From contig NZ_KI629782.1 in assembly GCF_000503775.1 (NCBI RefSeq), positions 1 through 64,000 on the forward strand: a stretch of 64,000 nt of DNA. The letters are read 5' to 3'. Within the stretch, counting starts at the first letter, position 1, and every line of letters starts with the position of its first letter. The stretch comes from Brevibacillus panacihumi W25. Its GTDB lineage: Bacteria > Bacillota > Bacilli > Brevibacillales > Brevibacillaceae. The position numbers and the translations under genes were made by a program. Under the pieces are notes generated by a model. That model saw only the letters and a program-made list of their open reading frames with translations, was not told the DNA's origin and did not search any database. Below, in pieces: positions 8,858 through 63,870 of the stretch.

Positions 8858-8873
8858 TCCTTTTACCTCCAAA

Positions 8874-22109: not shown

Positions 22110-22123
22110 GTTGTTCATCCTTT

Positions 22124-22349
22124 CTATGTTTTTTCCTGCATCGCTGGTGTTTGCGTTTGCCATGCGTCCGTCAATGCCCCAAGCGTCCCGACCATATTGT
22201 CCGGCAACGACCGCAAGAGCATGATAAAGCTGTCTGCGATCCAATTCACAGTGGCCCTGTCGACGTACAGCTCGTTGTATTTGATCGAGAGTTCTAGTCG
22301 TTCGCTTGGAATCCCGTAGACGCGCAATGGAACATTGAAATGGACTCTG
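22124..22349 (-). pseudogene. Out-of-frame C-terminal end of the last condensation domain
   Basis: Directly after the stop codon of the final synthetase, the +1 frame continues with a recognisable end of a condensation domain: THNRVHFNVPLRVYGIPSER, then LELSIKYNELYVDRATVNWI, and ends in QEKT. Its TAG stop (22124-22126) runs straight into the AAAGGA ribosome binding site of the next gene. That is how an original synthetase stop would be placed. In-frame stops limit the frameshift to about 22350-22372. It may be a real mutation or a one-base sequence error. Confidence 0.8.
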
Positions 22350-37438: not shown

Positions 37439-37472
37439 GTATTTCCTCCTCTAGCCTCCCTTCAGAACCTGA

Positions 37473-39410: not shown

Positions 39411-39937
39411 GCCCCGTTCCCCTTCGCAACATGAGCGGATCGGCTCAGATAGGCATCGATTTGTTTTTGATGGTGCCAGTCATGCTCTACGAATTCCCCG
39501 ATGAGATAAAGCAGCGTATAGGCTTCTTGGGTATGGGGACAATGGCTGTTTTCATTGACGGTGACAGGCTTGCTGCGAAGATCGTCAGTCAGATTATTGA
39601 CTTGGTTCACCAGTTCTTCTCGGAGCTGGATTGCTGCTGAAAGGACATCGTGCGCACTGACACCGGCGATCGATTCCGTCGATTGACGATTGAATATATC
39701 GTGATCGGGAAAAGAAACCTGATTGCCAGTTCTGATATCCGGCAAAACCGAATGAAGCAGGTATTGATCCCAACCAAGCAAATGGTTGACGGTATCGACA
39801 ATGGACCACTTCCCTTCCTGCATCGGTACATTGAGCAAACCTTCGTCCATGCCGAGCAGCAAGACGTAGTTGTCACGAAAGGCAAGAAATTTGTTCAACA
39901 CTTCTGCCCCATGAATCATGGCGATCCCTCTTTTCAT
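39407..39937 (-). CDS. DinB/YfiT-fold protein
   Basis: A four-helix protein of the DinB-like family, many members of which bind a divalent metal through three His and transfer thiol groups or act as hydrolases. Candidate ligands are His in VNHLLGWDQYLL and the pair in GEFVEHDWHHQKQID near the C-terminus. The N-terminal segment FLAFRDNYVLLLGMDEGLLN is also typical. The ATG at 39937 overlaps the PKS stop codon by one base (TGATG). An alternative ATG at 39919 has a better site (AGAGGG). The cluster role is unknown: tailoring, detoxification or resistance are possible. Confidence 0.8.
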   Translation of the reverse strand: MKRGIAMIHGAEVLNKFLAFRDNYVLLLGMDEGLLNVPMQEGKWSIVDTVNHLLGWDQYLLHSVLPDIRTGNQVSFPDHDIFNRQSTESIAGVSAHDVLSAAIQLREELVNQVNNLTDDLRSKPVTVNENSHCPHTQEAYTLLYLIGEFVEHDWHHQKQIDAYLSRSAHVAKGNGA

Positions 39938-42900: not shown

Positions 42901-44583
42901 TTGCGTAAACACATGCTCTTGACCGTATAATCCCAAAGTCATGTTCACATACTGCTCTCCGAGGCCGGGAAACAAAAAGGCTACTTCCTTATTCGTGCCG
43001 CTCATTTCACCTGACAAGACTCTCCTTGCGTCTCGTAAGGCAAGCCTCTCCCTTGCTTCTTTCGCTGTCTGGCAAACAAGCATTCGACGGTGGGGAAAAT
43101 GAGCTCTGCCTGTCTGAAGTGTATAGGCGATTTCAGCAAGCGATTGCTGTGGCTGTTCTTCCATATGACGGATCAGACGATCTGTCATTTGTTCTAATGC
43201 ATCCTTTGTTTTAGCCGAAAGCAAAATCAGTTGATGCGGACGAAAAGATCCTGTTTTTTCCCGAGGCGGGGCTTCTTCGAGGATTAGATGAGCATTCGTT
43301 CCTCCGATTCCAAAGGAGCTTATTCCCGCCCTGCGTGGACCCTCGCTGCTTTTCCATTCCATCAGCTCGGTATTGATGTAAAACGGGCTGTCTGCGAGCG
43401 GAATTTGTTGATTGGGTTCCTGAAAATGAAGGGTTGCAGGAATTTGTTTATGGTGCAACGCCATGGTTGTCTTGATCAATCCTGCCATACCGGCAGCAGA
43501 ATCGAGATGACCGACGTTGGTTTTGACCGAACCGAGTGCACAAAACTGCTTTTCATCGGTATTTTCCTCAAAAACGCGGATCAATGCCGAAGCTTCAATG
43601 GGATCTCCCAGTGCAGTTCCCGTACCGTGTGTCTCAATGTAGTCAATCGTTCTTGGTTCAACCTGTGCGACAGCCTGAGCTGTAGCAATGACTTCGATTT
43701 GTCCTTCTACACTGGGAGCTGTATATCCGACGCGGCTGGAACCGTCGTTGTTGATGGAGGAGCCCTTGATCACAGCATAGATCAAATCGCGGTCGGCGAT
43801 TGCGTCTTCAAGCCTCTTCAAGAGAACGACTCCGACCCCATTTCCAAACCCGGAGCCTTGCGCGTTTTTGTCAAAAGCACGAGTATGGCCATCAGGTGAA
43901 GCGATCCAGCCCTCCTGATAGAGATAGCCCGTATGCTGCGGAACCTTGATCGTCACGCCGCCCGCCAGCGCCATGTCGCAATGGTAGCTGAGCAGACTTT
44001 GGCAAGCTAGATGGGTTGCGACTAGAGACGTTGAGCAGGCGGTATTGACGTTGACGCTTGGTCCTCTCAGATTCAGCTTGTAGGATGTGCGCGTAGGCAT
44101 GTGGTCCTTCTCATTTCCGATGGCAATTTGCCAGGCTCCGCTCGAGCTCAAATGCTCCAGATTGGGCAGAAGATTGTGAAGAAAATAGGTACTGGAAGGG
44201 GCTCCCGCAAATACACCGATGATGGCTTCCGTATCATAGGGAGAGTAGCCCGCCATTTCCAGCGACTCCCATACGCATTCCAGAAACAATCGCTGCTGCG
44301 GATCAAGCAGCTCTGCTTCCCGAGGAGAGAAGCCAAAAAAAGAGGCGTCAAACCATTCAATCCCCTCTAGCACTCCTTGTGCTGGCACGAAGTCGGGATG
44401 GTTGATCAGTTCTTCCGCAACTCCTGCTGCGAGCAGTTCCTCTTTGCTGAAAAACGTAATCGTTTCCCTGCCGTTCACAAGATTCTGCCAAAACTGACTG
44501 ACGCTTTGCGCACCCGGGAAGCGTCCCGACATGCCGATTATGGCAACTCCTCCAAGATACGCTTGGGTATCGTCCATACTCAT
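39937..44583 (-). CDS. Type I PKS module KS-AT-KR-ACP
   Basis: A 1548-residue module. KS: Cys183 in NTACSTSLVATH, with His in IETHGTGT and NVGHLDSAAG. AT: Ser654 in GYSIGEYTAAC, HAFH in TTHAFHSAMM (malonyl-type), and an unusual PGLGEQYVNM where GQGSQ-type motifs are common. KR: YLITGGLGRLG, Lys in LPKVQGFYVL, Ser in YLSSLSATLGG, Tyr in SAYAAAHTFLDYA, where the usual Asn after YAAA is His. ACP: Ser1486 in LGGDSLIG. No DH or ER, so a beta-hydroxy unit is expected. The ATG at 44583 follows GAGGTGG. It receives the chain from the A-less C-T protein and passes it to the Ser/beta-Ala synthetase. Confidence 0.93.
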   Translation of the reverse strand: MSMDDTQAYLGGVAIIGMSGRFPGAQSVSQFWQNLVNGRETITFFSKEELLAAGVAEELINHPDFVPAQGVLEGIEWFDASFFGFSPREAELLDPQQRLFLECVWESLEMAGYSPYDTEAIIGVFAGAPSSTYFLHNLLPNLEHLSSSGAWQIAIGNEKDHMPTRTSYKLNLRGPSVNVNTACSTSLVATHLACQSLLSYHCDMALAGGVTIKVPQHTGYLYQEGWIASPDGHTRAFDKNAQGSGFGNGVGVVLLKRLEDAIADRDLIYAVIKGSSINNDGSSRVGYTAPSVEGQIEVIATAQAVAQVEPRTIDYIETHGTGTALGDPIEASALIRVFEENTDEKQFCALGSVKTNVGHLDSAAGMAGLIKTTMALHHKQIPATLHFQEPNQQIPLADSPFYINTELMEWKSSEGPRRAGISSFGIGGTNAHLILEEAPPREKTGSFRPHQLILLSAKTKDALEQMTDRLIRHMEEQPQQSLAEIAYTLQTGRAHFPHRRMLVCQTAKEARERLALRDARRVLSGEMSGTNKEVAFLFPGLGEQYVNMTLGLYGQEHVFTQEIDHCSELLKPHLGEDLRNILFQPQQQKEVETSEPGRLDLRKLLGRSQEGNDPAQELLNRTKYAHPTLFVLEYALAQQWMAWGIKPAAMVGYSIGEYTAACLSGVISKEDALYLIAKRAELIETLPPGAMLGAPMSADELIELLKPGLSLAADNAPDLSVAAGPVHLIAALEAELAMREIPTRRLQTTHAFHSAMMEPLRDAFQSMVAGIRLHPPQIPYVSTVTGTWITPDEATDPRYWSEHMCKPVRFGKAVRSLHEAFPGQVWLEVGPGHSLGNLVMHNEEALSGERPAVIPTVRHLYDLSSDAEFLLQSIGKLWLEGVRFDWHHYWGEDKPYRASLPTYPFERERYWVDPVVAREEKNATTVDVRLAVKDWFSYPIWEQNVQPERLPLEKQASGKTRWLFFANESFVSRHVHTVLRQEDSEAEVYTIFAGTDYKQAGPYEFTIEPDNPTHYEMLVKALHSGSSPFPSRIVHAWHVDHDEESNEEITWPHAFWQQQRLGFRSLLSLTQAMSRQHVDQNCMISVITSGLSDVTGDEILVPEKSTLLALLKVIPQEYRNMTCRHIDIPVALANKRGTERLLAQLTEEILYPSVDPTVALRGARRYRQTYEAVSLPKSDTTPAILRQGGVYLITGGLGRLGMLFADYLAQQVQAKLVLTGRTILSALENEDNRGCEGDQSLRAIIEKWQSIGGEVLMLQADVASLEQMRAAVAQAIHRFGRIDGVIHTAGIMGEAAHADILDTDEEMIQKNFLPKVQGFYVLQDALKDVPLDFTLYLSSLSATLGGLGASAYAAAHTFLDYAARNSSHAKSSPVISVDWDGAATDTETLDAIDRIFAAKSHEIPLIVSTRRLSDMVKKWLTSAPDPLHSEKQSISTGSSYARPHLKNAYVAPQTELEQLIAAIWSPLLGIEQIGVHDRFFDLGGDSLIGTQLISRLRATFEIDLTLRMLFEIPTVAEQAALIEEILLSKVEALDETIVSSMETEYMKN

Positions 44584-44596
44584 CGTGATTTCCACC

Positions 44597-49300: not shown

Positions 49301-51047
49301 CGATCGGGACGTAGGCGCCACCTGCTTTCATGATCGCCAGCAGGCTGATGACCATCTCTACGGAACGAGCCATGTAGACACCGACTAGATCATCGGGCTT
49401 GATTCCCAGGTGTCGCAAGTAATGCGCTAGCTGATTCGCCTGGCTGTTCAGCTCCCGGTAGGTCAGACGATCGGTTCCGAAAACAATCGCTTCTCTGTCA
49501 GGTGTTCTTTCAGTCTGCTCCTCAATGAGCTGAGGCAGAAGCAGACTAGGTTCATAGACTACCTGAGTCTGGTTCCATGTATGCAAAAGCAGCTCGGATT
49601 CTCTTTCAGTTAAAATAGAAAACTGGTTGATTCCGATCTCGGGTGACTTGGCCATCGTTTCCAGAATGATGACAAAATGATCGATCATTCGTTCTATGGT
49701 GCTTGCGTCAAACAAATCGGTACTGTATTCCAGCTCCCCCAGCAGCTCCGCTCCTTGCTCCCGGATAAAGAGCGACAGATCAAACTTGGAAGTGTGCTTA
49801 CCCACCTCCTCCATCTGCACCTCCAGGTTGGAGACCTGTGCTGTTTGCATAGGAGAGTTCTGGACGGCGAACTCAGCCTGAAAGATTGGCTGATAGCTGA
49901 GATTCCGCTCGGGCTGCAAGATGTCTACCAGTTTTTCAAAAGGGAGCGCCTGATGTTCAAACGCCTCAAGCACCGTTTCACGAACGCGTTGGAAGAGCTC
50001 CCGAAAGCTAGGAGCGTCAGAAAGATCGACACGCATGACCAGGGTATTGACGAAAAAACCGATGATATTTTCCACAGCTGTCTGATGGCGATTTGCTACA
50101 GGGGTTCCTACCAAAATGTCTTCTTGTCCGGAATAACGATAGAGCAATGTTTGGTAGGCTGCCAGAAGTCCCATGAACAGCGTGATGCCTTCACGTTGGA
50201 ACAGACACCGCAGTTTCTCAGCCAGTTCGGCTCGTATGGAAAAGCGGATAAGATTACCGCGATAGCTTTGTGTACTCGGACGTGGACGGTCGGAAGGAAG
50301 CTGAAGAACCGGCAGCTCTCCACCCAGCCTGTTCTTCCAATAGGTGGTGAGCGATTCCAGTTTTTCTCCCTGGCATACCTCCAATTGTTCATAAGCATAA
50401 TCGATGTACTGCATCTGCAACTCCGGAAGTCTTAGATTCGCACCGGTGGAAAAAGCTTCATAGCAAAGGATAATTTCTTGTACCATGATCCCGCAAGACC
50501 AGCCATCAGTAATGATATGGTGTTTGGTGATGAGTAGGCGGTATTCTTCTTCAGCTATCCGAAACAAACTAGCGCGGAGCAAAGGCCCCTTTTCCAGATC
50601 AAATGGATGCTGCGACTCCTGAGTCAGAATTTCCTGCCACTTTTTTTCTCTCTCTCCAGTCAAAAGTCCCCGCAGATCCTGGGTCAGCAAATGAAAGGGC
50701 TCTGCTGGCTGTATGATCTGTCTCGCTTCCCCATCTACTGTCAGAAATCGCGTCCGCAGCATCTCGTGCCGTACAACCAACTGGTCAAAGCTCCTTTTCA
50801 ACGCCTCTACATCCACTGGGCCGCGCATCCGGACGGAGGTTACGATGCTGTACGCCGGATGATGGGGCTCCAACTGGTCTACCACCCACAGTCGCTGCTG
50901 CGAAAAGGAAAGCGGGTGATGATCTGCATGAAGCGGGCGTCTCTTAATCGGGCGCTCCCCTTGTTTTCGCTTCTTCTTCAGCCTAATCAGCTGATCCAGA
51001 TTGTGTGCCGTCAGTTCACGGATGCGCTTTTGCAAGTCTTCCCTCAA
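46338..51047 (-). CDS. NRPS C-A(Ser)-T-E
   Basis: A 1569-residue module. Condensation about 40-480 (TKHHIITDGWS; start HPLSFSQQRLWVVDQL). Adenylation about 490-1010 (YVIYTSGSTGTPKGV, LYGPTEAAIDV, HNGKVDR). Carrier Ser1049 in LGGDSIMS. Epimerisation about 1090-1550 (IHHLLVDSVSW, TVGWFTSLYPIRF, NYLGQID). The adenylation pocket reads D-V-W-H-F-S-L-I-D-K, one residue from the standard serine code, so D-Ser is expected. A TTG start at 51047 overlaps the stop of the preceding PKS (TTGA), with GGAGGGA upstream. It takes the chain from a KS-AT-KR-ACP module and hands it to the A-less C-T protein. Confidence 0.93.
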   Translation of the reverse strand: MREDLQKRIRELTAHNLDQLIRLKKKRKQGERPIKRRPLHADHHPLSFSQQRLWVVDQLEPHHPAYSIVTSVRMRGPVDVEALKRSFDQLVVRHEMLRTRFLTVDGEARQIIQPAEPFHLLTQDLRGLLTGEREKKWQEILTQESQHPFDLEKGPLLRASLFRIAEEEYRLLITKHHIITDGWSCGIMVQEIILCYEAFSTGANLRLPELQMQYIDYAYEQLEVCQGEKLESLTTYWKNRLGGELPVLQLPSDRPRPSTQSYRGNLIRFSIRAELAEKLRCLFQREGITLFMGLLAAYQTLLYRYSGQEDILVGTPVANRHQTAVENIIGFFVNTLVMRVDLSDAPSFRELFQRVRETVLEAFEHQALPFEKLVDILQPERNLSYQPIFQAEFAVQNSPMQTAQVSNLEVQMEEVGKHTSKFDLSLFIREQGAELLGELEYSTDLFDASTIERMIDHFVIILETMAKSPEIGINQFSILTERESELLLHTWNQTQVVYEPSLLLPQLIEEQTERTPDREAIVFGTDRLTYRELNSQANQLAHYLRHLGIKPDDLVGVYMARSVEMVISLLAIMKAGGAYVPIDPDYPRERIRYMLEDTQASVVLTQETLRHTLPEIENLCRIIAVDGENRPWNALSTNNLSVLIEDTHLAYVIYTSGSTGTPKGVMNTHAGIRNRLLWMQDEYGLDATDRILQKTPFSFDVSVWEFFWPLLAGATLVVARPDGHRDPEYLREVMLSERITTLHFVPSMLILFLEQSKRGTFPHLRRVFCSGEALPYECKERFFEAHPETELHNLYGPTEAAIDVTFFSCQPGDERRTVPIGRPIANTRIYLLDGEKNPVPVGVTGELYIGGVNLARGYWGRPDLTEEKFIADPFSVQNGERLYRTGDLARWQPDGNIEYLGRADFQVKLRGLRIELGEIEHVLCQHKDIREAVVTVVQDRKAAHLVAYVVTCEGAQSDSGAWRIHILKKLPDYMVPSRFVILDEIPLSHNGKVDRKRLPEPEWEQETRQAVHIAPRNDVEKIIAEIWAELFQLEQISVHDNFFSLGGDSIMSIQAASRLRQAGLKLTPKQLIQHQTIAELAQVAVTNQLPPSAPETALHGKVLLTPIQRWFFSRQLAHLHHENQSMLLEVSAELEATTIRLGWEALVRHHDSLRMRFVPSAGGWNQQYEHVTDSVSFSIEDLSRLPLDDQERIQRQRSDEAQASLDISKGPLHRLILFEKGDHRQLLIIIHHLLVDSVSWRILLEDLEHVCLQLSRGESICLPAKTTSYQEWADRLATYARSEVIQRETGYWMEQELYAPEDESGVELCLNTGDMAQRFIIELDTHHTDKLVRLLPKINRLKIQEVVLAALIRSGALGSGNEDFTIDMESHGRETLEEGMDLSRTVGWFTSLYPIRFSPAVGMSRENTLLLVKEKLRRVPAQGIGYGIIRYLGEAEGVRNKSESTTSRLLLFNYLGQIDSSMGQNGFFRPVHRYVGLDRSPKNQRSHWLELNVSIFGQRLRMEWTYHPLVHSPAEMQIYAEATLEEIKAMIRLSEQPDAIGYAPVDFPLTKLLPEEWKEIERQLVRLES

Positions 51048-54000
51048 GACAGCAGTCCCTCCCTTTCCTCCATCAATTCCAGCTCATGCAATATCTCTGG
51101 ATCAAGATCCCGTACCAGCTCTTCCAATACAAGAGTAGACAATTCTCCAATAGTCGGTGCTTCAAACAGGACCCGGAGCGGGATATCGATCTGGAAGGCT
51201 TCCCGCATGCGAGAGATCAACTGGGTTCCGAGCAGGGAATGACCTCCCAGATCAAAGAAGAAGTGATCTTGAACCCCGATTCCCTGTATTCCCAACAGCT
51301 GGGACCAAATTCCTTCCAGCTTCCGCTCGATTTCATTGGACGGCTCGACATAAGGGGTCCTGGTTTTTGGACGGGGACGACGCTGGTCAGAGTCGGAATC
51401 CACCTGATTTGACATACCGTCTTTCTGAGAAATTCGCACCCATTGGTCGATACGCGCCTCGAGCTCTCCCGTGGAAACAATCACCTGAGGTACCGCCGGT
51501 GCGGACAGCAGGCGGGCAAAAATCGCCTGACCTTCTTCCGGAAGCAGGAAGTACGGACTTAGGGTCGCACCTAGTCCAGTCTGGATAAAAATTTCTTCGT
51601 CCTTATGCCATGCCTCCCAATTGATCACCCAGCAGGGGAAACCATCTTCAGAACCCGCTTTAAACTTGTGAGCATACAGATCAAGATAGGCATTGGACGA
51701 AGCATAGGCCACGTGAGCTAATCCTCCGAGAATGGGGGATAGCGATGATGTCAACAAGCAAAAATCAAGCCGCACGTCTCGAAGCGCTTCTCTGAGGACC
51801 GCGAGTCCCTTGATCTTCGGTGAAAAATGCCAGTCCGCTTCTACCACTCCCGTCTCTTGGATGGTTTTCTGTGCATCGTGGTCGGGTCGACCTGCAGCAT
51901 GAATCACGCCATGAATCGTGCCAAATCGCATCAACGTTTTTTCGACTGCTGCCTCCATGTCCTTCTTGGACGTCACATCGGCCTGGACAATCAGCACTTC
52001 TCCTCCGTTTTTCTCCAAGTTTTTGACCTCACGGATGCGCTGACAGACTTGTTCGTTTTCCCCATGCGCTGACAGCCATGCTTCCCACTCCGTGCGCGGA
52101 GGCAGCCCGGTGCGTGAGAGCAACACCAGCTTAGCCTGCATCGTTTTCGCCAAATAGTCTGCCAGAACCAACCCGATTTTGCCCAATCCACCGGTGATCA
52201 AATAGACGCCTTCCTTGCGAAGCAGACGAGGAGCTGTATCAGGCTCGGGTAATTCAATCGGTTCAAATCTCTGGCACCATCGCTGTCCTCCTCGATAAGC
52301 AACGACCTTTTCGTCCTGTTGTGTCATGATCTCCTTTATCAGCTTGGCCGCCAGCACTCCCTCCTGTTCCGCGTCAGGCAGGAGAAAATCGACGCTTTTG
52401 CAGCTAAGATTCATGTATTCCTGCGGGATGACCTTCAACGGACCGATGAGGGTCGCTTTCTCCGGGATCAGCTCTTCATCTCCTAATACGTCATACAAGC
52501 CGGTTGAGAAGACGTGTAACGCAATCTCGCTCGTCACATGGTTTTTGGCCAATGCCTGCGCCAGATAGAGAAGGCTGTAAAAGCCTCGTGATTGCAGCTC
52601 ATCAAATGCAGGAGTCTCCTCTTCTTTCGGAGCAGTGACGCTCCATGCATGGACGATATCGGTAGGAAGATGCCCGGTTTCCAGCAACGATTTGATCACT
52701 TTCTGGTAATCTGCTGGGTTGGCAGGATTAATGACCATCGTATTCATGGAAAGGTTCCCGAAATCGGTTCCCATCCTCACCGTAAAGACGGTATCTCCTC
52801 TGTCGTTCAGTTGGGATGCGAGCGCATCAGCCCATGTCAGTTCGGGTAGGAACAGCAGCCAGGTTCGGGCGTTTCCAGGCTTTTGCATATCTACATCTGT
52901 AATCGGCTTTCGTATCCATGAAGGGGTATACAGCCATTTATCGGATTCCAACCGAGTTGCAGATTTCGCGGATTTACGAGGAGCAGTCCCCTCTTCAATC
53001 GAATCGATCCAATAGCGCTCCTTGGCAAAGGGATAGGTTGGATAGGGAATTCGCAAGCGCTGTTCAGCGGCATAAAATCCATGCCAATCGATCTCTACTC
53101 CCTCAAGCCAGAGTTGGCCAACAGCACCAATAAGCACTTCCTGATCATCCTTTTTCTCGTAGCGGTTTCGTAAACAAGCGATCGCACAGATTTCTTCGGC
53201 CTGTGTTTGATCGAGCATGTGCATAATCAGACTGCTTAGTGAATATCCGGGACCGGCCTCGATCATAACCTGATTGGGATGCTTGCGGAAAAGCTGCTGG
53301 CAGGCAGAATGAAAACGCACTGTTCCGCACAGATGCTCTGCCCAATAGTCAGGACTGGTCGCTTCCTCTTTCGTCATCCAATCTCCTGTTACTGTCGAAA
53401 CGAGAGGCAGCTTCGGCGGAAATAAGGCTATGCCATCCACGAGCCGACGAAACTCCTCCCGAATCGGTTCCATCATTCGAGAATGAAAAGCATGAGTGGT
53501 CGGTAGGCGGCTGGACGCCACTTTGCGAACTTGCATTTGCTGTTCAAGACGAAGAATTTCATCCTCGGGGCCGCCTATGACGCACATGGTGTCACCATTC
53601 ACCGCGCAAATGGACACATGCTCATTCAGCAGCGTGGACATCTCCGTTTCAGAAAGATGGACAGCCAGCATGGTTCCCCCCGGAAGCCTCTGGATCATCT
53701 CGGCGCGCTTGGCTACGAGCGTCAGGGCATCCGACAACGTCATCACGCCTGCACACACAGCAGCCACATACTCGCCGATACTGTATCCGATGAGGGCTTT
53801 CGGACGGATTCCCCATGATTCCAATAGCTTCGCAAGTGCGTATTCAATCACAAATAAAGCAGGCTGCGCTAACCGGGTTTGATTCAACCGAGTATCCTCT
53901 TTACATGATTCTGCTGTACCCCTGGCTAGCATACCGCGCAAATCCAGCCGGCCATCACCCTCTGAAACGATCTGCGAAGGGTCAAAAAGGACTTCGCGAA

Positions 54001-55732
54001 TGTCTTCCCCAATACTGGAAAGGAGGCTGACTGCACATTGATCCACGGCTTCCCGAAAGATGGATTCGCTTTGATAGAGTCCATAACCCATGTTGAGATA
54101 GTGATCCCCCAAACCCGGAAATAGGAAAGTGACATTACGATGCTTGTCCACGCATTCCCGTCTGAACAGCTTGCCCGGAGTAAGCCCATTCAAGGCTTGT
54201 AGGGCTTCGTTGTGATCACGGCAAAGGATTGCGCAGCGCTGCTCGAGTGCTTTGCGTCCGACCTTGCTTGTATAGGCGATATCTGCCAGTTTGGAATCGG
54301 ATTGTCGGGAAAGAAAGTGTGCCATATCCTCCATCTGTTGCTCCAAGGCAGTCTCTGTCTTGCCGGAGAGGAGCAATAGCTGCCACGGGCGGCTCGGACC
54401 GGGCTCACTTCTCGGAGGCGCTTCTTCGAGAATGAGGTGTACGTTCGTTCCACCCATTCCAAAAGCGCTGACCCCTGCCCGTCTGGGGAAATCCGTATCA
54501 TCCTCCCATTCTGTCAGCCGGGTATTCACATAAAAGGGACTCTGCGTAAACCCAATCTCCGGATTCGGTTTGCTGAAATGAAGGCTGGGGGGGATTTTTT
54601 TGTGCTTGAGCGCCATGACAGTTTTGATGAGCCCAGCCATTCCTGCAGCCGCCTCCAGATGTCCGACATTGGTTTTGACGGAACCGACCGCACAATATCC
54701 CACTTGTGCAGTATGTGTACGGTATGCCTGGGTCAAGGCGTGCATTTCGATGCTATCACCCAAGGGAGTTCCGCTTCCATGGGCTTCGACATAGCGTATC
54801 GTCTCTGGATGAACCTCCGCCACTGACAGAGCTTCTTCGATCACGGCTCGCTGGCTTTCTATGCCGGGAGCTGTAAAGCTAGCCTTGCGCGAGCCGTCAT
54901 TGTTGGAGGCAGATCCTTTGATGACCGCATGGATTTCATCCCCGTCAGCCAGAGCATCTTCCAAGCGTTTAAGAACAACCATGCCGATTCCGCTTCCAAA
55001 ATTCGTGCCACTTGCCTGTTCATCGAAAGACCGGACATGCCCGTCAGCAGAAAGCATTCCTCCTGGTTGATATACATAACCGCTTGGCCGGGTGTAGAGG
55101 GCTACTCCTCCGGCTAACGCCATCTGGCATTCATCAATCAATAGACTCTGGCAAGCGAGATGGACAGTCACGAGTGAGGTGGAGCAGCCGGTATGAATGG
55201 AGTAGCTAGGACCTGTCAGGTTCATTTTGTACGAGATGCGCGGTGCCAGCAGACCGAAATCGTTCCCGGCGCCGATCGTGACCGTTCCGAGCCGTTCCAT
55301 CATCTCTCGATTGGTCATGAGCTGAAACAGGTAGGTGTTCATTCGGGAACCAGCAAATACACCGACCTTACCCGGGCATTGGTCCGGCGTGTAGCCGGCC
55401 GCCTCGAGTGCTTCCCATGCGCATTCTAGTAAAAGCCTTTGCTGAGGGTCCATGATTTCCGCTTCCCCTGGCGTATACCCAAAGAAAGACGCATCGAAGC
55501 AATCTATATCCTCCAGCACTGGAGACCGGGGGACATAATCGGGATGCCGGAGTTTCTCGGGATCTACGTAACCTTTGAGGTCATCCTCCTTGAAATGCTT
55601 GATGGTTTCTCTTCCGTCGCAGAGATTTTGCCAAAACTCTTCCAGGTTTTTGGCTCCTGGAAATCTTCCCGCCATCCCGATGATAGCAACTTCGGACCCA
55701 TTCCTATAAACGGACCAGTCCCTCTCCTCCAT
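51044..55732 (-). CDS. Type I PKS module KS-AT-KR-ACP
   Basis: A 1562-residue module. KS: Cys183 in HTGCSTSLVTVH, His in VEAHGSGT and NVGHLEAAAG. AT: Ser651 in GYSIGEYVAAV, HAFH motif in TTHAFHSRMM, and PGLGDHYLNM where a GQGSQ-like motif is usual. KR: YLITGGLGKIG, Lys in FSPKIKGLAVL, Ser in LLTSSLSPILGG, Tyr in VAYASSNAYLDLYA. ACP: Ser1499 in LGGHSLLGT. The C-terminal acidic helix may dock to the next protein. I chose the ATG at 55732, preceded by GAAGGAG. Upstream in-frame starts lie inside the previous gene. A beta-hydroxyacyl product is expected. Confidence 0.93.
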   Translation of the reverse strand: MEERDWSVYRNGSEVAIIGMAGRFPGAKNLEEFWQNLCDGRETIKHFKEDDLKGYVDPEKLRHPDYVPRSPVLEDIDCFDASFFGYTPGEAEIMDPQQRLLLECAWEALEAAGYTPDQCPGKVGVFAGSRMNTYLFQLMTNREMMERLGTVTIGAGNDFGLLAPRISYKMNLTGPSYSIHTGCSTSLVTVHLACQSLLIDECQMALAGGVALYTRPSGYVYQPGGMLSADGHVRSFDEQASGTNFGSGIGMVVLKRLEDALADGDEIHAVIKGSASNNDGSRKASFTAPGIESQRAVIEEALSVAEVHPETIRYVEAHGSGTPLGDSIEMHALTQAYRTHTAQVGYCAVGSVKTNVGHLEAAAGMAGLIKTVMALKHKKIPPSLHFSKPNPEIGFTQSPFYVNTRLTEWEDDTDFPRRAGVSAFGMGGTNVHLILEEAPPRSEPGPSRPWQLLLLSGKTETALEQQMEDMAHFLSRQSDSKLADIAYTSKVGRKALEQRCAILCRDHNEALQALNGLTPGKLFRRECVDKHRNVTFLFPGLGDHYLNMGYGLYQSESIFREAVDQCAVSLLSSIGEDIREVLFDPSQIVSEGDGRLDLRGMLARGTAESCKEDTRLNQTRLAQPALFVIEYALAKLLESWGIRPKALIGYSIGEYVAAVCAGVMTLSDALTLVAKRAEMIQRLPGGTMLAVHLSETEMSTLLNEHVSICAVNGDTMCVIGGPEDEILRLEQQMQVRKVASSRLPTTHAFHSRMMEPIREEFRRLVDGIALFPPKLPLVSTVTGDWMTKEEATSPDYWAEHLCGTVRFHSACQQLFRKHPNQVMIEAGPGYSLSSLIMHMLDQTQAEEICAIACLRNRYEKKDDQEVLIGAVGQLWLEGVEIDWHGFYAAEQRLRIPYPTYPFAKERYWIDSIEEGTAPRKSAKSATRLESDKWLYTPSWIRKPITDVDMQKPGNARTWLLFLPELTWADALASQLNDRGDTVFTVRMGTDFGNLSMNTMVINPANPADYQKVIKSLLETGHLPTDIVHAWSVTAPKEEETPAFDELQSRGFYSLLYLAQALAKNHVTSEIALHVFSTGLYDVLGDEELIPEKATLIGPLKVIPQEYMNLSCKSVDFLLPDAEQEGVLAAKLIKEIMTQQDEKVVAYRGGQRWCQRFEPIELPEPDTAPRLLRKEGVYLITGGLGKIGLVLADYLAKTMQAKLVLLSRTGLPPRTEWEAWLSAHGENEQVCQRIREVKNLEKNGGEVLIVQADVTSKKDMEAAVEKTLMRFGTIHGVIHAAGRPDHDAQKTIQETGVVEADWHFSPKIKGLAVLREALRDVRLDFCLLTSSLSPILGGLAHVAYASSNAYLDLYAHKFKAGSEDGFPCWVINWEAWHKDEEIFIQTGLGATLSPYFLLPEEGQAIFARLLSAPAVPQVIVSTGELEARIDQWVRISQKDGMSNQVDSDSDQRRPRPKTRTPYVEPSNEIERKLEGIWSQLLGIQGIGVQDHFFFDLGGHSLLGTQLISRMREAFQIDIPLRVLFEAPTIGELSTLVLEELVRDLDPEILHELELMEEREGLLS

Positions 55733-55736
55733 GCGT

Positions 55737-58397
55737 TTATCTCCTTCCTCGCGACCGCTGCTGCAGGAGCAGTTGTTTACGCCGCTGAACATGTCCTGCT
55801 TCGGTCAATATATTTTCCCTGTCCGGCTCCAATACAGAAGGTTCATTTACCAGCAAGGTCTCGATATAGGCAGCCAATTCCGATATGGTCCGCTTTTCGT
55901 AGACATGTACCACAGGCAGATCGATTTGAAAGATTCGCCTGCATTCATTCACGACCTGGATCGCCAAAAAGGAGTCGCCACCGCTTTCGAAAAAATGGTC
56001 GTGAAGGCCAACATGCTCAAGTCCGATCTTGTCTTTCCATATATCTGTCAATATGGACTCTATCTCTTCTCTGGTATAAATGACCTTCTCCGGTATGCTT
56101 CTGTCCTTGGCAGAACTCTCGCCATGGGTAGGTGTGTTGGCTTCGATCCAGTACTTTTTCCGTTCAAACGGATAGGTAGGCAGCGAGACTCGTTGCCGCC
56201 TCTCTCCTTCATATAATCGATCCCACGCGATGGAGACCCCGTTGCTCCAAAGCGTTCCTACTGTCGATAACAGGTTCCTGACCAGACTGTCATGAATCTC
56301 GGATGACACCCCGCAGTGCTTTTCGTACAGGCTACCGTCCCATAAGTCCACGACAAACCCTTCTTCCGACTTCCCACTGTCCTGCTGAACAAAATTCACC
56401 GTGCTGGATGCCGACGTCTTGCGGAGATATTGAATGGCAGCCTCTTCAGGGGATAGTGTGCCGGATAAAGTTGCCGATACCAGTCTCCCTGCCTCGTCGC
56501 CTATGAGTGTGTGCGGCGAAAGGCCCCAATGCGTCAGGAGATGTGCCAGGGCGTACTGGAAAACAAAGCTGACTACTGCTTGATTGGCTGGGAGCAGCAA
56601 TTGTCTTGCCGCGTCCGATATCTTGTCCGCTGCGGGGTAAAGAAGCGACTTCGCATCACTTCCTTTGTATTTCCTCAATAGTCCTGACATCTGATCGAAC
56701 GAATGGCGAAACATTTCTTCTGTCTCATACAAATCATGGCCATAGTAGACAACCGGATGTACGAATGACCGCATAGAAAAAAATACTGATGTTTCCTGTC
56801 TAGTCTTTGTAGGCAGGGTGCGATTCGGATCTTTCAGGACTGAGCACGCTTCTTCTGCCGAACGGCAAAGAACTACTCGACGAAAACGAAATACTTGGCG
56901 ACCTACTTGCAGCGTATAGGCGATATCCGTCAGGTTGGTTGCTGCATTCCTTTGCAAATAGTCCGCTAGTCGTAAAGAGGCATTCTTCAAGGCATCCATA
57001 CTTTTTGCGGAAAGAATCAGCAGATGGTCCTTTCGCTTATGCTGGTCTGCAATCAACGTAGGCGCTTCTTCCAGAACGACATGAGCATTGGTTCCCCCGA
57101 ATCCAAAAGAGCTGATTCCTGCCCTACGCGGTTGATCTTGCCTTTCTTGATGCTGGCTTTTCCAGGGAACCAGACGGGTATTGACTACAAACGGACTATT
57201 GGCAAAATCAATCTGGGGATTCGGCTCCCGGAAATGAAGGCTAGGCGGAATTTTTTGATGGTGGAGCGCCAGAACTGTTTTGATCAAGCCAGTAACTCCT
57301 GCCGCGTGCGCGAGATGACCCAGATTGGATTTGATGGAGCCAATCCGGCAAAATGCATTTTTATCTGTACTGAGACGAAAAGCCCGTGTCAGTGCCGCAA
57401 TTTCAATTGGATCCCCCAAGGAAGTTCCTGTCCCGTGCGCTTCCACGTAGGTGATGCTGTCTGCCTCGATTCCTGCATTGGCAATTGCCTCCGCGATCAC
57501 CTCAGCCTGACCGTCGATACTGGGGGCTGTATATCCAACCTTCAGGGAGCCATCGTTATTGACCGCAGAGCCTTTCACCACCGCGAGGATCTGATCGCCA
57601 CTGCGCAGCGCATCTTCCAGACGACGGAGGACGACGATGCCCATTCCGCTGCCAAACACCGTTCCGTTCGCATCCTTGTCAAATGGTCGGCAATGTCCAT
57701 CGGGGGAAACGATCCCTTCCTCCATATAGAAATATCCCGTATCGTGGGTCAGATTGATGGACACCCCGCCCGCTAATGCCATATCACATTCGTAAGAAAG
57801 CAAACTTTGACATGCAGCATGTACGGCGACCAGCGAGGTGGAGCAAGCGCTTTGGACGATGTGGCTTGGACCACGCAGGTTCAATTTGTACGAGGTTCGC
57901 GTCGTCAGCGAATCGGGAGCGTTCCCGATCTCGATTTGCACAGGATCGAAGGACTGCAGAATGTCTGGGCGGGACATGATGTTCTTCAATAGATAGGTAC
58001 TGAGCGAAGACCCCGCAAACACACCGATGGTTCCGTCAAACCGATCTGGTACATGACCGGCATCCTCCAGAGCCTCCCAGGCACCTTCCAGAAATAGGCG
58101 TTGCTGAGGGTCCATCAGCCTTGCTTCGTGAGGGTTGATTCCGAAAAATTCGGCATCAAAATGCTTCATGCCATCGATCGATGCAACCGCAGGAACGTGG
58201 TGGGGGTGACGAATGATGTCATCCCCTGCTCCGCGCTCGCGCAACTCCTCCTCGCTCAAATGCCTGATTGTCTCATGCCCATCACACAGTCTGTCCCAAA
58301 GCTCCCGAATCGTAGGTGCACCGGGAAACCTCCCAGCCATCCCAATGATGGCGATTTCGTTGCCCGACATGGATTGCAGTATTCCGTCCAGCTTCAT
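55737..58397 (-). CDS. Type I PKS module KS-(degenerate AT)-ACP
   Basis: An 886-residue module. KS is complete: Cys185 in VQSACSTSLVAVH, His in VEAHGTGT and NLGHLAHAAG. The linker after KS and the first part of an AT are recognisable. The nucleophile motif GHSxG, however, is GDEAG (Glu635 in place of Ser, Asp in place of His). About 200 residues that should follow, including the HAFH motif, are missing. The post-AT linker (LPTYPFERKKYW) is kept and leads to an ACP with Ser809 in SGGDSFLAIQ. There is no KR. The extender unit must come from another AT, or the module passes the chain on unchanged. The ATG follows AGGAGG. The next gene starts 5 bases after its stop. Confidence 0.92.
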   Translation of the reverse strand: MKLDGILQSMSGNEIAIIGMAGRFPGAPTIRELWDRLCDGHETIRHLSEEELRERGAGDDIIRHPHHVPAVASIDGMKHFDAEFFGINPHEARLMDPQQRLFLEGAWEALEDAGHVPDRFDGTIGVFAGSSLSTYLLKNIMSRPDILQSFDPVQIEIGNAPDSLTTRTSYKLNLRGPSHIVQSACSTSLVAVHAACQSLLSYECDMALAGGVSINLTHDTGYFYMEEGIVSPDGHCRPFDKDANGTVFGSGMGIVVLRRLEDALRSGDQILAVVKGSAVNNDGSLKVGYTAPSIDGQAEVIAEAIANAGIEADSITYVEAHGTGTSLGDPIEIAALTRAFRLSTDKNAFCRIGSIKSNLGHLAHAAGVTGLIKTVLALHHQKIPPSLHFREPNPQIDFANSPFVVNTRLVPWKSQHQERQDQPRRAGISSFGFGGTNAHVVLEEAPTLIADQHKRKDHLLILSAKSMDALKNASLRLADYLQRNAATNLTDIAYTLQVGRQVFRFRRVVLCRSAEEACSVLKDPNRTLPTKTRQETSVFFSMRSFVHPVVYYGHDLYETEEMFRHSFDQMSGLLRKYKGSDAKSLLYPAADKISDAARQLLLPANQAVVSFVFQYALAHLLTHWGLSPHTLIGDEAGRLVSATLSGTLSPEEAAIQYLRKTSASSTVNFVQQDSGKSEEGFVVDLWDGSLYEKHCGVSSEIHDSLVRNLLSTVGTLWSNGVSIAWDRLYEGERRQRVSLPTYPFERKKYWIEANTPTHGESSAKDRSIPEKVIYTREEIESILTDIWKDKIGLEHVGLHDHFFESGGDSFLAIQVVNECRRIFQIDLPVVHVYEKRTISELAAYIETLLVNEPSVLEPDRENILTEAGHVQRRKQLLLQQRSRGRR

Positions 58398-58409: not shown

Positions 58410-61400
58410 TTAGGATTTGGTGAGCTGTTTGCGCTTTTCTCTGCGCAGCTCCCCTCTGTTTTTGCTGGTGGCCAGCGCAGGCTTTTCCATTTGATTGTCC
58501 CCGAGCAGTTCGGCAAAAGTCTGCACGGTTGGGCCTTCGTACAAGCGGACTGGAAGCAGAGTGGTAGAAAATGCTTCGTTGATCTGGGCAATCAGCTTGA
58601 TACCGACCAAGGAATTTCCTCCAAGCTCAAAAAAGTTGTCCTGTATGCCGACCTGATCGATTCCCAGAGTACGCTGCCAGATGTCACAAATTTTCTTTTC
58701 GATCTCGTTGCGCGGCGCTACATACGGATTTTGCAGGGATGGCCTAGGATGGAGCGCGGCCTGGTGGGCAAGTTCGATCGCTTGCTCCGGGGCAAATGCT
58801 CCTGTACTGACCCACTCTTGGCTACGCTGATTCAGGTCAATTGTTGACACGGCCACCCGTCCCATATCTATCCGTGCCAAAAGAGCCGGTAAAATCAGCG
58901 CAAATTCATGGGGGCGCATTGCATTTTCAGAAAAGCTGCTCTGCTCGATCAGATTCACTTGTTCCTTTTCTGCTCCAAAGAGAAACGCGTCCAGATTCCA
59001 GCTCGCCCACATTGTTTTTCCTGCTCGATTGGAGCAAACAGAAAAGGAGTCCATGAATTGATTGGCAGCCGCGTAATGAGCGCTCTTCATTCCACCAAGC
59101 AAGGAAGCCAACGAAGAGATCAGGATGCAGCATGTTGGACGAAGCTGCGTCACCAGAGTATCGAGAACATACAAGCCTTGTACCTTTGCCACAAAGTGCT
59201 GGCTGCTTAGGTCGGCTGTCGTTTCCCGAATAAACTGAAAATAACGTTCATGGACAGCACCGGCTGCGTGGAAGATTCCATCGAGACTGCCCCATTGCTC
59301 GATGATTTCATCAGTCGCTTGACGCATCTGGTCGAGTGAGGAAACATCCGCTTCGAGCACCATTACCCTAGCCCCCATTTGTTCCAAGGACTGAACCCGA
59401 CGAATTTTTTCTGTCATTGGATCATCGGGACGCAAACGAAGCCATTGTTCCCACTCTGCACGCTTTGGAACCGGAGTACGCCCTAGCAAAGCCAGCTTGT
59501 GTACGCCCTGCTTCACCAGTACTTCCGCGATCAACAGCCCAAGGTCCCCGAGACCACCTGTAATAAGGCAAGTCTCAAGCTGGGGAAGTGAAAGCGGAGT
59601 CGATGTTTCTATCTCCATATTCTCGTAAGCGGGGACGAATCGTCTGTTCCCCCGGTAGGCGACGACCCCTTCCCGGTGCTTGCTTCTGCATTGCTCGATG
59701 ACAAAATCAGCCAAATTGTCTACAGACACCGTACTATCGTGCCGAAGGTCCAGATCCACTGCAGACACCTGAATTTGCGGAAATTCCTGTGCTATTACTT
59801 TGCCTGCTGCCAGGGCGACGGTTTTTTCCGGAATGATTTGTTCGTTGCCCATGACATCGTGCAAGCGATCCGACAACAGCGTCAGGCGTACTGCATTCGT
59901 ACCATTGCAGGTTTCCCACGTTCGTGCAAGTGACAGCAGGCTGTCAAAACCGCTTTCGACATAGGTCTCAAAGACGCTGTAAGGTTCTTTATCTTGGAAC
60001 TCCTTTTCTTCCAACAACCAGACATGCAAGAGGTGATCGGGACGAAGACCACGTGCAGCCACTTCTTGCAGACAAGCTGCGTAATCCTCTTCTCGATTGG
60101 GCCGAATGACAAAGACGTTTTCGTCCAGCACTTGGTAGGCATGACCCTTCCGCACGGAAATCACCGTTTGATTCTGTTCCATCAGACGATGGACCAACAG
60201 TCTGCTCCAGGGATCTTCCCCTTCCAATACTAGCCAGGTCTGCGATACAGGTATCTGTTCCCTCGGCGATCGAACAGCTGACTGCTTCCAGATCGGATGA
60301 TACAGCCATTCCTCGGGTCTCTGACGTCGATTGTTACCCCCACTGCCATGAAGTTTGATTTTGTCAAGCGGTTCAATCCAATAGCGCTGTCTTTCAAACG
60401 GATAGGTTGGCAATGGGACACGACGACGCTGCTCTTCTTGGTAAAAGGCTTGCCAATTCACCACTGCTCCCGCCAGCCAAAGCTTGCCCACGACTTGCAT
60501 CAAAAAACGTGCATCCGGTACCGAATCCTTGGGATGGCGAAGCGAGTGAAGAACGACCTGTCTTTGATGAGCTTGTCTCAATTCCTTGACCAGGGAATGA
60601 AGCGTACTGCCCGGTCCAACCTCCAGGAACAGATAAGAGGGCTCCTCTAATAAGGTTTGGATTCCCGGCGCAAACATAACACCCTGCCGCAAATGCTTTG
60701 CCCAATAGCCCGGATCGGTGGCTTCCTGTTCGGTGATCCAGGTCCCTGTCACGTTGGACAGGTACGGAATCCGGGGAGAACGCAAACTGATTTGCTGCAT
60801 GCAGGCTGTAAAACGCTGTACAATGGGCTCCATCATATGGGAGTGAAAGGCGTGAGAGGTCTGGAGCAGTGTACTCGTCACTCCTTGCTGTTCCAGTAAT
60901 TGCTGAAACTGCATAACATGCTCCGTCTCCCCAGACACTACACATAGCCGATTGCCGTTCCATGCTGCCAGCGATAGTCGAGCATCAAGCAGAGGTTCCA
61001 GCTCTTCTGGAGAAAGTTGGACCGAAAGCATGCTGCCGGCCGGCAACTCTTGAATCATCCGACCGCGCATCGCGATTATGTGGAGCGCATCCTCGAGTGT
61101 AAATACCCCTGAAAGGCAAGCTGCCACGTATTCTCCGACACTGTGTCCAATCATCGCCTGCGGCTGGATGCCCCATGCCATCCATAGCTTGGCCAAGGCA
61201 TATTCGATGACGAACAATGCCGGCTGTGTCAACCAGGTTTGCCGCAGCATTTCAGCTGACTCTGCCTCCCGGTCTGCAGGGGGATAAAGCACATCGCGCA
61301 AATCCAGGTTAAGGACGGGAAGAAGCAATTCACAGCACTGGTCTACGTACATTTTGAACACAGCCTCTGTTTCATAGAGCCCTTTCCCCATGTTGACATA

Positions 61401-63032
61401 TTGCGAGCCTTGTCCTGTAAAGAGAAAAACAACAGGCCTCTCCCGCTCCTCTTCTACTGATGATTCACCAGCTCGATAGCTACCTTCTTGCAAGGCTTGG
61501 ATCCCCTCGTCCGTGTCAGAAGCAACAATGAAACGGCGATGCGATAACGTCTTTCTTCCTATATTTAGAGTGTATGCCACGTCTGCAAACGGCAGCTGTT
61601 CACGGTCTTTCAAATGATTGGCCAGATTGTCCGTCAGCTTCTTCAATGCAGTAGCCGTTTTGGCGGAAAAAGTAAGAAGCTGATAGGGTCGCGAGATACT
61701 GCTTTGGGCTTCTTCTGGTTCAGGTACATTCTCCAAAATGACATGGGCATTTGTTCCCCCCATCCCGAAGGAACTCACTCCCGCACGCCGCCGCTGATCC
61801 CCTGTCACCCATTTTGTCACTTCTGTCGGAACGTAAAAGGGACTGTTCTCCAGATCCATTTGCGGATTGGGCTTCTCAAAATGTAGCGTCGGCGGAATGA
61901 TTCCGTGCTTCACGGCTAGAGAAGCCTTGATCAAGCCTATGACGCCAGCCGCTGTATCAAGGTGTCCGATGTTTGTCTTGACGGAGCCTAACGCGCAATA
62001 TCCTTTTTTGTCCGTACTTCGGCGAAACACTTCCGTCAATGCTTCGACTTCGATCGGATCCCCGATCCTTGTACCGGTCCCGTGCGCCTCAATGTAGGTT
62101 ATGCTTTCAGGCTCTACCCCCGCCATAGCTTGAGCCATGGCGATCACTTCTGCCTGGCCCTTAACGCTCGGCGCCATATAACTCACTTTGTTCGTGCCGT
62201 CGTTATTGACTGCTGAACCTTTGATTACTGCGTAGACATGGTCCCCGTCGCGCAAAGCGTCCGACAAACGCTTTAGCACCACACATCCCGCACCGTGTCC
62301 GCTGACGAAACCCTGGGCTTTCTCGTCAAAGGCTCGACAATGTCCATCCGGCGAAGTAGTTCCTCCTTCGTGATAGAGATATCCTGCCTTTTCCGGAAAA
62401 TGGATCGATATACCGCCGGACAGTGCCATGTCGCATTCGTAACTGAGCAGGCTTTGGCATGCGTAGTGAATCGCGGTGAGAGAAGTCGAAGAGGAGGACT
62501 GAATCGTGACGGCAGGTCCCTTGAGATTGAGCTTGTAAGAGACTTCCGTTGTCAGGCTGTCCTTGTCGTTTCCAATCGCTGCCTGCAGGCTTTCGACTGA
62601 AGCAATCAAGTCCACATGCTCGTATAAATTGTGCAACCAATACGTATTCATGCTCTGCCCAGCAAAAACGCCGATGCGCCCCTCGTAGGTATCCGGGTTG
62701 TATCCCGCATCCTCGATGGCTTCCCACGAGCATTCCAGAAATATCCGATGCTGAGGGTCCGTCAACTCCGCCACCCGCGGATTATATCCGAAAAAGGCTG
62801 CATCGAACTGATCGGTATTTCCGAGAATGCCCTTTGCTTTTATGTAGCGGGGATTGGCGATGATGGCTGGGTCAATCCGGGAAGCAAGCAGCTCCTCGTC
62901 CGTCAGCTCCGTGATAGACTCCACCTTTTGCAACAGATTGTTCCAAAACTGCTCCACATTGTCGGCGCCGGGGAACCTCCCGGACATGCCAATCACCGCG
63001 ATGCCATCCACTGAATCAACCCAATCGTGCAT
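58410..63032 (-). CDS. Type I PKS module KS(Ser)-AT-KR-ACP, candidate loading module
   Basis: A 1540-residue module. The KS has both catalytic His (317 in IEAHGTGT, 357 in NIGHLDTAAG), but the nucleophile Cys is Ser181 (TIQSSSSTSLTAIH, codon TCT at 62490-62492). AT: GQGSQYVNM, Ser631 in GHSVGEYVAAC, HAFH in TSHAFHSHMM (malonyl-type). KR: CLITGGLGDLG, Lys in FVAKVQGLYVL, Ser in LISSLASLLGG, Tyr in AHYAAANQFMDS. ACP: Ser1474 in LGGNSLVG. A Ser or Gln at this KS position is known from decarboxylating loading modules and from non-elongating KS domains. Being the first synthase gene fits a loading role, but a complete KR does not. The ATG at 63032 has GAGGAGG upstream. Confidence 0.92.
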   Translation of the reverse strand: MHDWVDSVDGIAVIGMSGRFPGADNVEQFWNNLLQKVESITELTDEELLASRIDPAIIANPRYIKAKGILGNTDQFDAAFFGYNPRVAELTDPQHRIFLECSWEAIEDAGYNPDTYEGRIGVFAGQSMNTYWLHNLYEHVDLIASVESLQAAIGNDKDSLTTEVSYKLNLKGPAVTIQSSSSTSLTAIHYACQSLLSYECDMALSGGISIHFPEKAGYLYHEGGTTSPDGHCRAFDEKAQGFVSGHGAGCVVLKRLSDALRDGDHVYAVIKGSAVNNDGTNKVSYMAPSVKGQAEVIAMAQAMAGVEPESITYIEAHGTGTRIGDPIEVEALTEVFRRSTDKKGYCALGSVKTNIGHLDTAAGVIGLIKASLAVKHGIIPPTLHFEKPNPQMDLENSPFYVPTEVTKWVTGDQRRRAGVSSFGMGGTNAHVILENVPEPEEAQSSISRPYQLLTFSAKTATALKKLTDNLANHLKDREQLPFADVAYTLNIGRKTLSHRRFIVASDTDEGIQALQEGSYRAGESSVEEERERPVVFLFTGQGSQYVNMGKGLYETEAVFKMYVDQCCELLLPVLNLDLRDVLYPPADREAESAEMLRQTWLTQPALFVIEYALAKLWMAWGIQPQAMIGHSVGEYVAACLSGVFTLEDALHIIAMRGRMIQELPAGSMLSVQLSPEELEPLLDARLSLAAWNGNRLCVVSGETEHVMQFQQLLEQQGVTSTLLQTSHAFHSHMMEPIVQRFTACMQQISLRSPRIPYLSNVTGTWITEQEATDPGYWAKHLRQGVMFAPGIQTLLEEPSYLFLEVGPGSTLHSLVKELRQAHQRQVVLHSLRHPKDSVPDARFLMQVVGKLWLAGAVVNWQAFYQEEQRRRVPLPTYPFERQRYWIEPLDKIKLHGSGGNNRRQRPEEWLYHPIWKQSAVRSPREQIPVSQTWLVLEGEDPWSRLLVHRLMEQNQTVISVRKGHAYQVLDENVFVIRPNREEDYAACLQEVAARGLRPDHLLHVWLLEEKEFQDKEPYSVFETYVESGFDSLLSLARTWETCNGTNAVRLTLLSDRLHDVMGNEQIIPEKTVALAAGKVIAQEFPQIQVSAVDLDLRHDSTVSVDNLADFVIEQCRSKHREGVVAYRGNRRFVPAYENMEIETSTPLSLPQLETCLITGGLGDLGLLIAEVLVKQGVHKLALLGRTPVPKRAEWEQWLRLRPDDPMTEKIRRVQSLEQMGARVMVLEADVSSLDQMRQATDEIIEQWGSLDGIFHAAGAVHERYFQFIRETTADLSSQHFVAKVQGLYVLDTLVTQLRPTCCILISSLASLLGGMKSAHYAAANQFMDSFSVCSNRAGKTMWASWNLDAFLFGAEKEQVNLIEQSSFSENAMRPHEFALILPALLARIDMGRVAVSTIDLNQRSQEWVSTGAFAPEQAIELAHQAALHPRPSLQNPYVAPRNEIEKKICDIWQRTLGIDQVGIQDNFFELGGNSLVGIKLIAQINEAFSTTLLPVRLYEGPTVQTFAELLGDNQMEKPALATSKNRGELRREKRKQLTKS

Positions 63033-63081
63033 GCAGCTTTCCTCCTCGTCTTGTGATAGAAAGCGCGTCCCACCACGGTTA

Positions 63082-63870
63082 TTAATGCCCTGTGCTGGCA
63101 AAGGAACGCAATCCTCTTTTCCAAAAGAAATAAGCGATCATACAACAGAGAATCGCCACTGCCGGGGTCAGATAGCCAACGGTATGGTATCCGCCCTGGT
63201 CGACAAACACCGCTGCCGGGTAAAACGATGTAAACCCGTACGGGATGATCCACGTTAACACAAAGCGCAATCCCTTGTTGTAAATTGTCAAAGGGTAATT
63301 GGTAAAGCTGCTTAGCTGGTATGTTGTAGACATGATAGGGAAGCTGTCTACCATCCAGAAGGAAAAGGTGGCAAAAAATAGGTTCACTGCAATAAAGATC
63401 AACCCGCTGGACAGGATCAATAAGGCAAGGATCAGTGTCTCTAGTCCCCCCCAAGGCATGGAGAGCTCCGGAATCGCAATGCCCAGCACAATCACTCCGA
63501 TGATCAACTGACCAATTCCGTCCGGTTGTATCCGATCAGCAATCAGGTGAAAAAGCGGCGGAATCGGACGAAGTAGAATGCGGTCGAAGTTCCCAGTGCG
63601 GATATAAGCGGAACCTAGCACCCAGAGGTTTTCAAAGAAAAATTGATGAATGGCTCTTCCGGTAGCCGCGATGCCGTAAATGAACAATACCTCGTGAAAC
63701 GTCCAGCCTTGCAGGGTATGAATGTGGTCAAAGACGATTTTCACAAACAGAATGGAGGTAGTTTGGATAAACAGGATCGAAAGAGCTCCGATAAGAAAAT
63801 CAACACGGTACTCCATCATTGCTTTTAGCCTGGCTGAGAAAAAACATACATACAGCTGGAAATAACGCAT
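63082..63870 (-). CDS. ABC-2 type (DUF990-like) permease
   Basis: A 262-residue membrane protein with six hydrophobic segments of the ABC-2/DUF990 type, for example FLIGALSILFIQTTSILFV, LIIGVIVLGIA and LILALLILSSGLIFIAV. Also present is the family-like stretch RTGNFDRILLRPIPPLFHLI between the second and third segments. Such permeases work in pairs with one ATPase. A second permease ends just upstream (63895). No ATPase lies in the window, so it is expected further right. Position at the head of the operon suggests export of the product and self-protection. GAGGAGG precedes the ATG at rather wide spacing. Confidence 0.87.
   Translation of the reverse strand: MRYFQLYVCFFSARLKAMMEYRVDFLIGALSILFIQTTSILFVKIVFDHIHTLQGWTFHEVLFIYGIAATGRAIHQFFFENLWVLGSAYIRTGNFDRILLRPIPPLFHLIADRIQPDGIGQLIIGVIVLGIAIPELSMPWGGLETLILALLILSSGLIFIAVNLFFATFSFWMVDSFPIMSTTYQLSSFTNYPLTIYNKGLRFVLTWIIPYGFTSFYPAAVFVDQGGYHTVGYLTPAVAILCCMIAYFFWKRGLRSFASTGH

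Follow-up and report, generated by a model that had tools for sequence, protein, structure and literature searches.

In the assembly line for FK228, acyltransferase (AT)-deficient modules that carry a dead AT are reportedly loaded by FabD. The polyketide synthase (PKS) module considered here, M2, is encoded on the minus strand at 55737..58397 of the window, by which we mean the whole 64,000-nucleotide stretch that was analysed (Brevibacillus panacihumi W25, contig NZ_KI629782.1, positions 1 to 64,000), and retains only a remnant of its AT; compared with FK228, just one of the four PKS modules is affected. Among the closest known systems to M2 are two ketosynthases (KSs) of the oxazolomycin PKS, OzmQ KS1 (PDB 4oqj) and OzmN KS2 (PDB 4wky). 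The parts of PMC6164871 available to us describe a discrete AT, OzmC, for methoxymalonyl-acyl carrier protein (ACP) in that pathway, whereas FabD is the only discrete AT found here; likewise, the colibactin proteins ClbC and ClbK are served by a discrete ClbG (PMC5923317, accessible part), and no ClbG-like protein was found here. The zwittermicin line (ZmaA, ZmaF) resembles the present one in being a mixed nonribosomal peptide synthetase (NRPS)-PKS system with, apparently in both cases, ACP-linked extender units, and it uses the discrete AT ZmaF (PMC4207774 and PMC6164871, as far as their available text goes). Unlike zwittermicin, the line studied here has neither a ZmaF-like protein nor a cis AT with the GYSFG plus hydrophobic motif of ZmaA-AT.

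Since 122 PKS and 351 PKS-NRPS lines among 8799 combine cis and trans modules (PMC10394414, in the portion accessible to us), trans modules within mixed lines are already known, and M2 is probably a trans-loaded module of this known kind. What is distinctive here is that a single eroded module stands beside three intact ones, with FabD as the only discrete AT found. A literature search, extending to parts of the sources it reached, turned up no description of this case, which is not to claim that it is absent from print.

The acyltransferase remnant of M2

The open reading frame (ORF) list and Pfam matches place on the minus strand of the window a mixed NRPS-PKS line in which M1, M2 and M3 are followed by an NRPS protein with condensation (C), adenylation (A) and peptidyl carrier protein (PCP) domains in the order C-A-PCP-C, a C-PCP protein, M4, further NRPS proteins and a thioesterase. 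M2 has 886 residues without an internal stop and consists of a KS, a partial AT, a post-AT linker and an ACP; a ketoreductase (KR) is absent. Its KS (KS2; residues 13-444, 57066..58361) has Cys185, His321 and His361, and its ACP (ACP2; PF00550, residues 776-851, 55845..56072) the attachment residue Ser809, all four in columns that are invariant or nearly so across 72 aligned sequences. Between them lie the KS-AT linker (residues 445-530, 56808..57065; PF22621/PF22336 match at 458-522), the front portion of the large AT subdomain as recognized by alignment and predicted structure (residues 537-662, 56412..56789), and the post-AT linker with its LPTYPFE motif (residues 705-755, 56133..56285). 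An intact linker and ACP with no frameshift had been claimed in an earlier note made from the sequence, and this description holds.

Several lines of evidence bear on the AT itself. In M2, Pfam detected the KS, the KS-AT linker and the ACP but, at E 0.001, no PF00698, which the modules on either side match at 7.6e-52 and 1.1e-45. At residues 633-637 (56487..56501) GDEAG aligns with the GHSVG/GYSIG of the sister modules, and no HxFH is left, so that the replacement of GHSxG and the disappearance of HAFH reported in the earlier note are borne out. From the end of the KS to the YPF linker there are 292 residues in M2 as against 436, 457 and 460 in M1, M3 and M4, a shortfall of 144, 165 and 168; the loss put at about 200 residues in that note is therefore real but smaller. 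Weakly alignable sequence of about 40 residues (663-704, 56286..56411; pLDDT mostly below 50) marks the site of the missing small subdomain. In the predicted structure (mean pLDDT 86.8) the KS, the linkers, the ACP and the front portion of the large AT subdomain are seen; pLDDT is below 50 at residues 663-678 and 688-701. A complete AT with an alternative nucleophile, for which structure prediction had been proposed as a check, is ruled out by length, alignment and predicted structure.

M2 thus lacks the complete AT, with GHSxG and either HxFH or YASH, of a canonical cis-AT module. As in partial-AT modules, the nucleophile Ser and the catalytic His are gone and the KS-AT and post-AT linkers are kept, as are, judged from sequence, the catalytic and attachment residues of the KS and ACP. 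What has been lost is mainly the small subdomain carrying the catalytic His, and the conclusion that M2's own AT cannot work is supported. The nearest solved folds include OzmN KS2, OzmQ KS1, ClbC and ClbK, all AT-less or partial-AT modules, but ClbI, which has a complete AT, ranks third, and the argument that M2 is of a known kind rests as much on the shortened AT region as on fold rank.

M2 has an 886-residue homologue, 98% identical over residues 530-772, that is the representative of a 14-sequence cluster. Because this equally long homologue represents 14 sequences, an assembly error is unlikely, and together with the intact ORF it led us to reject an assembly error or frameshift. Between the two proteins there are 5 differences in 886 positions, all within 502-655, four of them in 530-660 and one elsewhere, a clustering for which Fisher's test gives p 0.002 on a single pair and with boundaries set post hoc; the KS and ACP are unchanged. 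The matching comparison of M1 has nine differences, none in its KS or AT. This pattern suggests that the AT remnant is under weaker constraint while the working domains of M2 are held. No close orthologue in another species was found among 26 genus genomes or 39 order genomes, where the best foreign match has 38% identity over half of the query; a search of genome contigs gave one locus at 27%, and no plasmid record matched M2 at 60% or more.

The other three modules, all KS-AT-KR-ACP and on the minus strand, are M1 (58410..63101, likely start 63032 from the length of P0153), M3 (51044..55792, likely start an ATG at 55732) and M4 (39937..44595). Their complete ATs give three cis ATs beside M2, and the line is otherwise cis-AT, as the earlier note had it. 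The C-PCP protein at 44597-46309, which has no adenylation domain, is a second carrier in the line without a loader of its own.

Loading of M2 and rival explanations

The source genome (11 contigs, completeness 100) was searched both with PF00698 and with the discrete AT of a related line (G012), and neither search returned an AT other than FabD and the three cis ATs; no discrete AT besides FabD, such as defines a trans-AT system, was found in the cluster or genome. The fabD gene has fapR, plsX, fabH, fabG, fabF and rnc as neighbours. Earlier speculation that an AT outside the window loads M2 fares accordingly: FabD exists, but no other was found in the genome.

On balance we favour, as somewhat better than an even guess, the explanation that M2 is an AT-less elongation module, loaded in trans, within an otherwise cis-AT line; we are less sure of the loader. 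As its own AT cannot work, M2, if it elongates, must be loaded by another enzyme. ACP2 would receive a malonyl unit in trans, KS2 would extend the chain once, without reduction because M2 has no KR, and the AT remnant would be retained as a spacer from KS to linker. The loader may be the housekeeping FabD, beside which the genome yielded no free-standing malonyl transferase; the AT of M1 or M3 would be the next candidate. The list of likely loaders comprises FabD, the AT of a neighbouring module and a BtrH-like acyltransferase from an FkbH-type operon.

This operon lies on L037, upstream of the window, where one run of genes encodes an acyl-CoA dehydrogenase, FkbH (257 bits, cut-off 147), a BtrH-like protein (L037:7836-8828), a methyltransferase and a FAAL-PCP-C-A-PCP protein; two small ORFs ahead of the run are taken, on their sequence, as putative free ACPs. 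With the 3-hydroxyacyl-CoA dehydrogenase (3HCDH) gene at 21246..22244 (minus strand), a probable part of the pathway, these genes look like a set for hydroxy- or methoxymalonyl-ACP. The cis ATs have the motifs TST, ASS and PTR with HAFH, read by eye from the alignment, and under the rule in the available part of PMC4207774 they do not appear to be specific for ACP-tethered units; motifs of the ACP-tethered type, again assigned by eye under that rule, occur in G012_110329 (ICI, GYSFG) and G029_107192 (LSM, GYSFG). As the cis ATs here lack the motif, M2 is one possible entry point of the ACP-linked unit. In the PDB, AT1 and AT3 match ZmaA-AT best and AT4 has it in second place, so that closeness to ZmaA-AT is uninformative on substrate.

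The absence of both AT and KR from M2, and of a dedicated loader from the genome, is also what one would expect if the module does not elongate and the chain is relayed unchanged through KS2 and ACP2. Relay KSs often lose a catalytic residue, however, and KS2 has them all, so that we consider a relay unlikely. Alternatively, M1 and M2, whose genes are adjacent, could form one split elongation module in which KS1, with its Ser, does not condense, KS2 does, AT1 loads ACP1 or ACP2, and KR1 reduces; the parts are complementary, M1 having an AT and KR but a Ser-KS and M2 a Cys-KS with neither AT nor KR. Ser-KS proteins elsewhere nonetheless form a conserved clade whose members carry an AT of their own and mostly a KR, which suggests complete modules and makes such a division of labour rather improbable. 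That M2 is the dead stage of a line being lost would fit the greater variability of its AT remnant relative to KS and ACP, but there is no frameshift or stop, the KS and ACP are identical between the pair compared, and a cluster of 14 sequences has the same form; recent decay therefore seems very improbable indeed.

M2 might instead be where an FkbH-type ACP-linked extender (hydroxy- or methoxymalonyl-ACP) enters, with a papain-like acyltransferase of the BtrH family replacing the lost AT and moving the unit from a free ACP to ACP2. The run of FkbH, acyl-CoA dehydrogenase, methyltransferase, BtrH-like and two small ACP-like ORFs, with the 3HCDH, points this way, as does the lack of a cis AT with the motif for ACP-tethered units given in the accessible text of PMC4207774. 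A BtrH-like gene is also present in each eroded-AT line examined (G000, G012, G017 and G029, plus a slice of G006); a profile search of stretches of G022, G002 and G005 found none, and the stretch of G022 has the FkbH set and three complete ATs but no discrete AT. On the other side, G027, a line of trans-AT layout, has four weak BtrH-like profile hits, and in G012 and G029 a BtrH-like gene coexists with a cis AT that has the motif, which speaks against the gene being needed for ACP-linked units there. The protein from L037 itself scores 23.6 bits with PF14399, under the cut-off of 29.7, and we know of no BtrH relative that loads a PKS ACP. Overall we think this entry route quite improbable, and three lineages are too few for inferring the function of the BtrH-like protein.

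All four aligned BtrH-like members, two of them near-identical orthologues, match PF14399 at E 0.01 or better, and Cys19, His127 and Asp145 are invariant among the four sequences. At E 1e-8, matches occur in six of the 39 order genomes, including the source genome and a stop-bearing fragment in G030. No relatives were found in plasmids, the close relatives in the protein database are the protein itself only, and a profile search of the PDB gave no credible match.

The serine ketosynthase of M1

Directly upstream of M2, as the earlier note had seen, the KS of M1 has Ser in place of the catalytic Cys (SSSSTSL; residue 204 of P0002). We surveyed the best 120 of 7916 homologues: 50 are at least 65% identical, and of these 49 have Ser and one Cys; the other 70 have Cys (63), Gln (6) or Thr (1), and none Ser. 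Both His and the Lys are kept in 49 of 49 Ser-KS proteins, one of which, P0153, is the window's own protein cluster, and 46 of them have GHSxGE somewhere. The clade is mostly KS-AT-KR-ACP, with names from Myxococcota, Chloroflexota and Bacillota among the matches listed. On this sequence comparison, the Ser-KS of M1 belongs to a conserved clade and is not decay.

Upstream of the window, and on the same strand, lies the FAAL-PCP-C-A-PCP gene (L037:1674-7085). One natural fusion, P0191, is FAAL-PCP-C-A-PCP-KS(Ser), and P0211 is C-A-PCP-KS(Ser)-AT-KR. Because of this gene and these proteins, M1 is placed mid-line as a conserved module type; it is not a KSQ-type loading module, having Ser rather than Gln and a FAAL-NRPS gene upstream. 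Together with the conserved Ser-KS clade, the upstream gene and P0191 leave unsupported the idea in the earlier note that the first two modules may act as a split starter. In the search for the Ser-KS in a foreign context, the best match was 62% among 398 class genomes, with at most four candidates scored in each, and no plasmid record matched P0190 at 60% or more. P0217 and P0222 are Ser-KS proteins of about 1500 residues without PF00698 in the precomputed Pfam list.

Related lines and significance

When 17 modules were aligned with two discrete ATs, the equivalent part of the AT proved to be missing from a further six modules (five of G012, one of G029), which belong to two additional lines of the same bacterial family; G017 has one counterpart of a G012 eroded module in the alignment and, going by position and KS, a counterpart for each of the five. 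None of the seven eroded modules has Ser at the nucleophile's position, and erosion is uneven, G012_152010 retaining FLEIGPG after the gap. A KS tree of 58 rows places M2 as the sister of P0031, whose AT is intact (96/90), and G012_125965 as the sister of an intact module (100/98); G012_152010 pairs with G012_172797 (98/90). The tree suggests at least three separate AT losses, provided that KS and AT descend together; against this, the placement of three eroded modules is unsettled, and recombination could mislead. The sister lines (G012/G017/G006 and G029) share with that of M2 the same AT loss, an FkbH operon and a BtrH-like gene, but differ in having a discrete AT (G012, G017 and G029) and five eroded modules each in G012 and G017.

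The G012 cluster (L022-L026) is a giant NRPS-PKS cluster with five eroded ATs and three complete cis ATs, and also holds a discrete AT, together with AT-less modules that have a trans-AT layout. The ATs of M4 (41953-42978) and M3 (53162-54130) share an insert (RLDLR) ahead of the helix preceding the nucleophile that is absent from the other ATs in the 17-module alignment. Elsewhere in the window, an extracellular solute-binding protein gene (28212-29492) stands amid the NRPS genes, and an APH/EcKL-like kinase and an S15/CocE-type hydrolase are encoded within the cluster (36341-39410), perhaps for self-resistance or activation. At 6322-10820, a TniQ-like protein, an AAA ATPase and a 648-residue protein without a Pfam match are encoded consecutively, a row that we presume may be a Tn7-like element.

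The conserved Ser-KS clade, of which one protein has the KS fused to a preceding FAAL-NRPS starter, prompts one to ask how a Ser ketosynthase works. Loading by a BtrH-like protein, if true, would be a second, unrelated way of loading a polyketide module. M2 poses a testable question, namely which enzyme fills a carrier without a dedicated AT. With one eroded AT among three intact ones, the line is a compact natural example of the transition from cis-AT to trans-AT, and its sister lines show other degrees of erosion, with the same subdomain lost each time.
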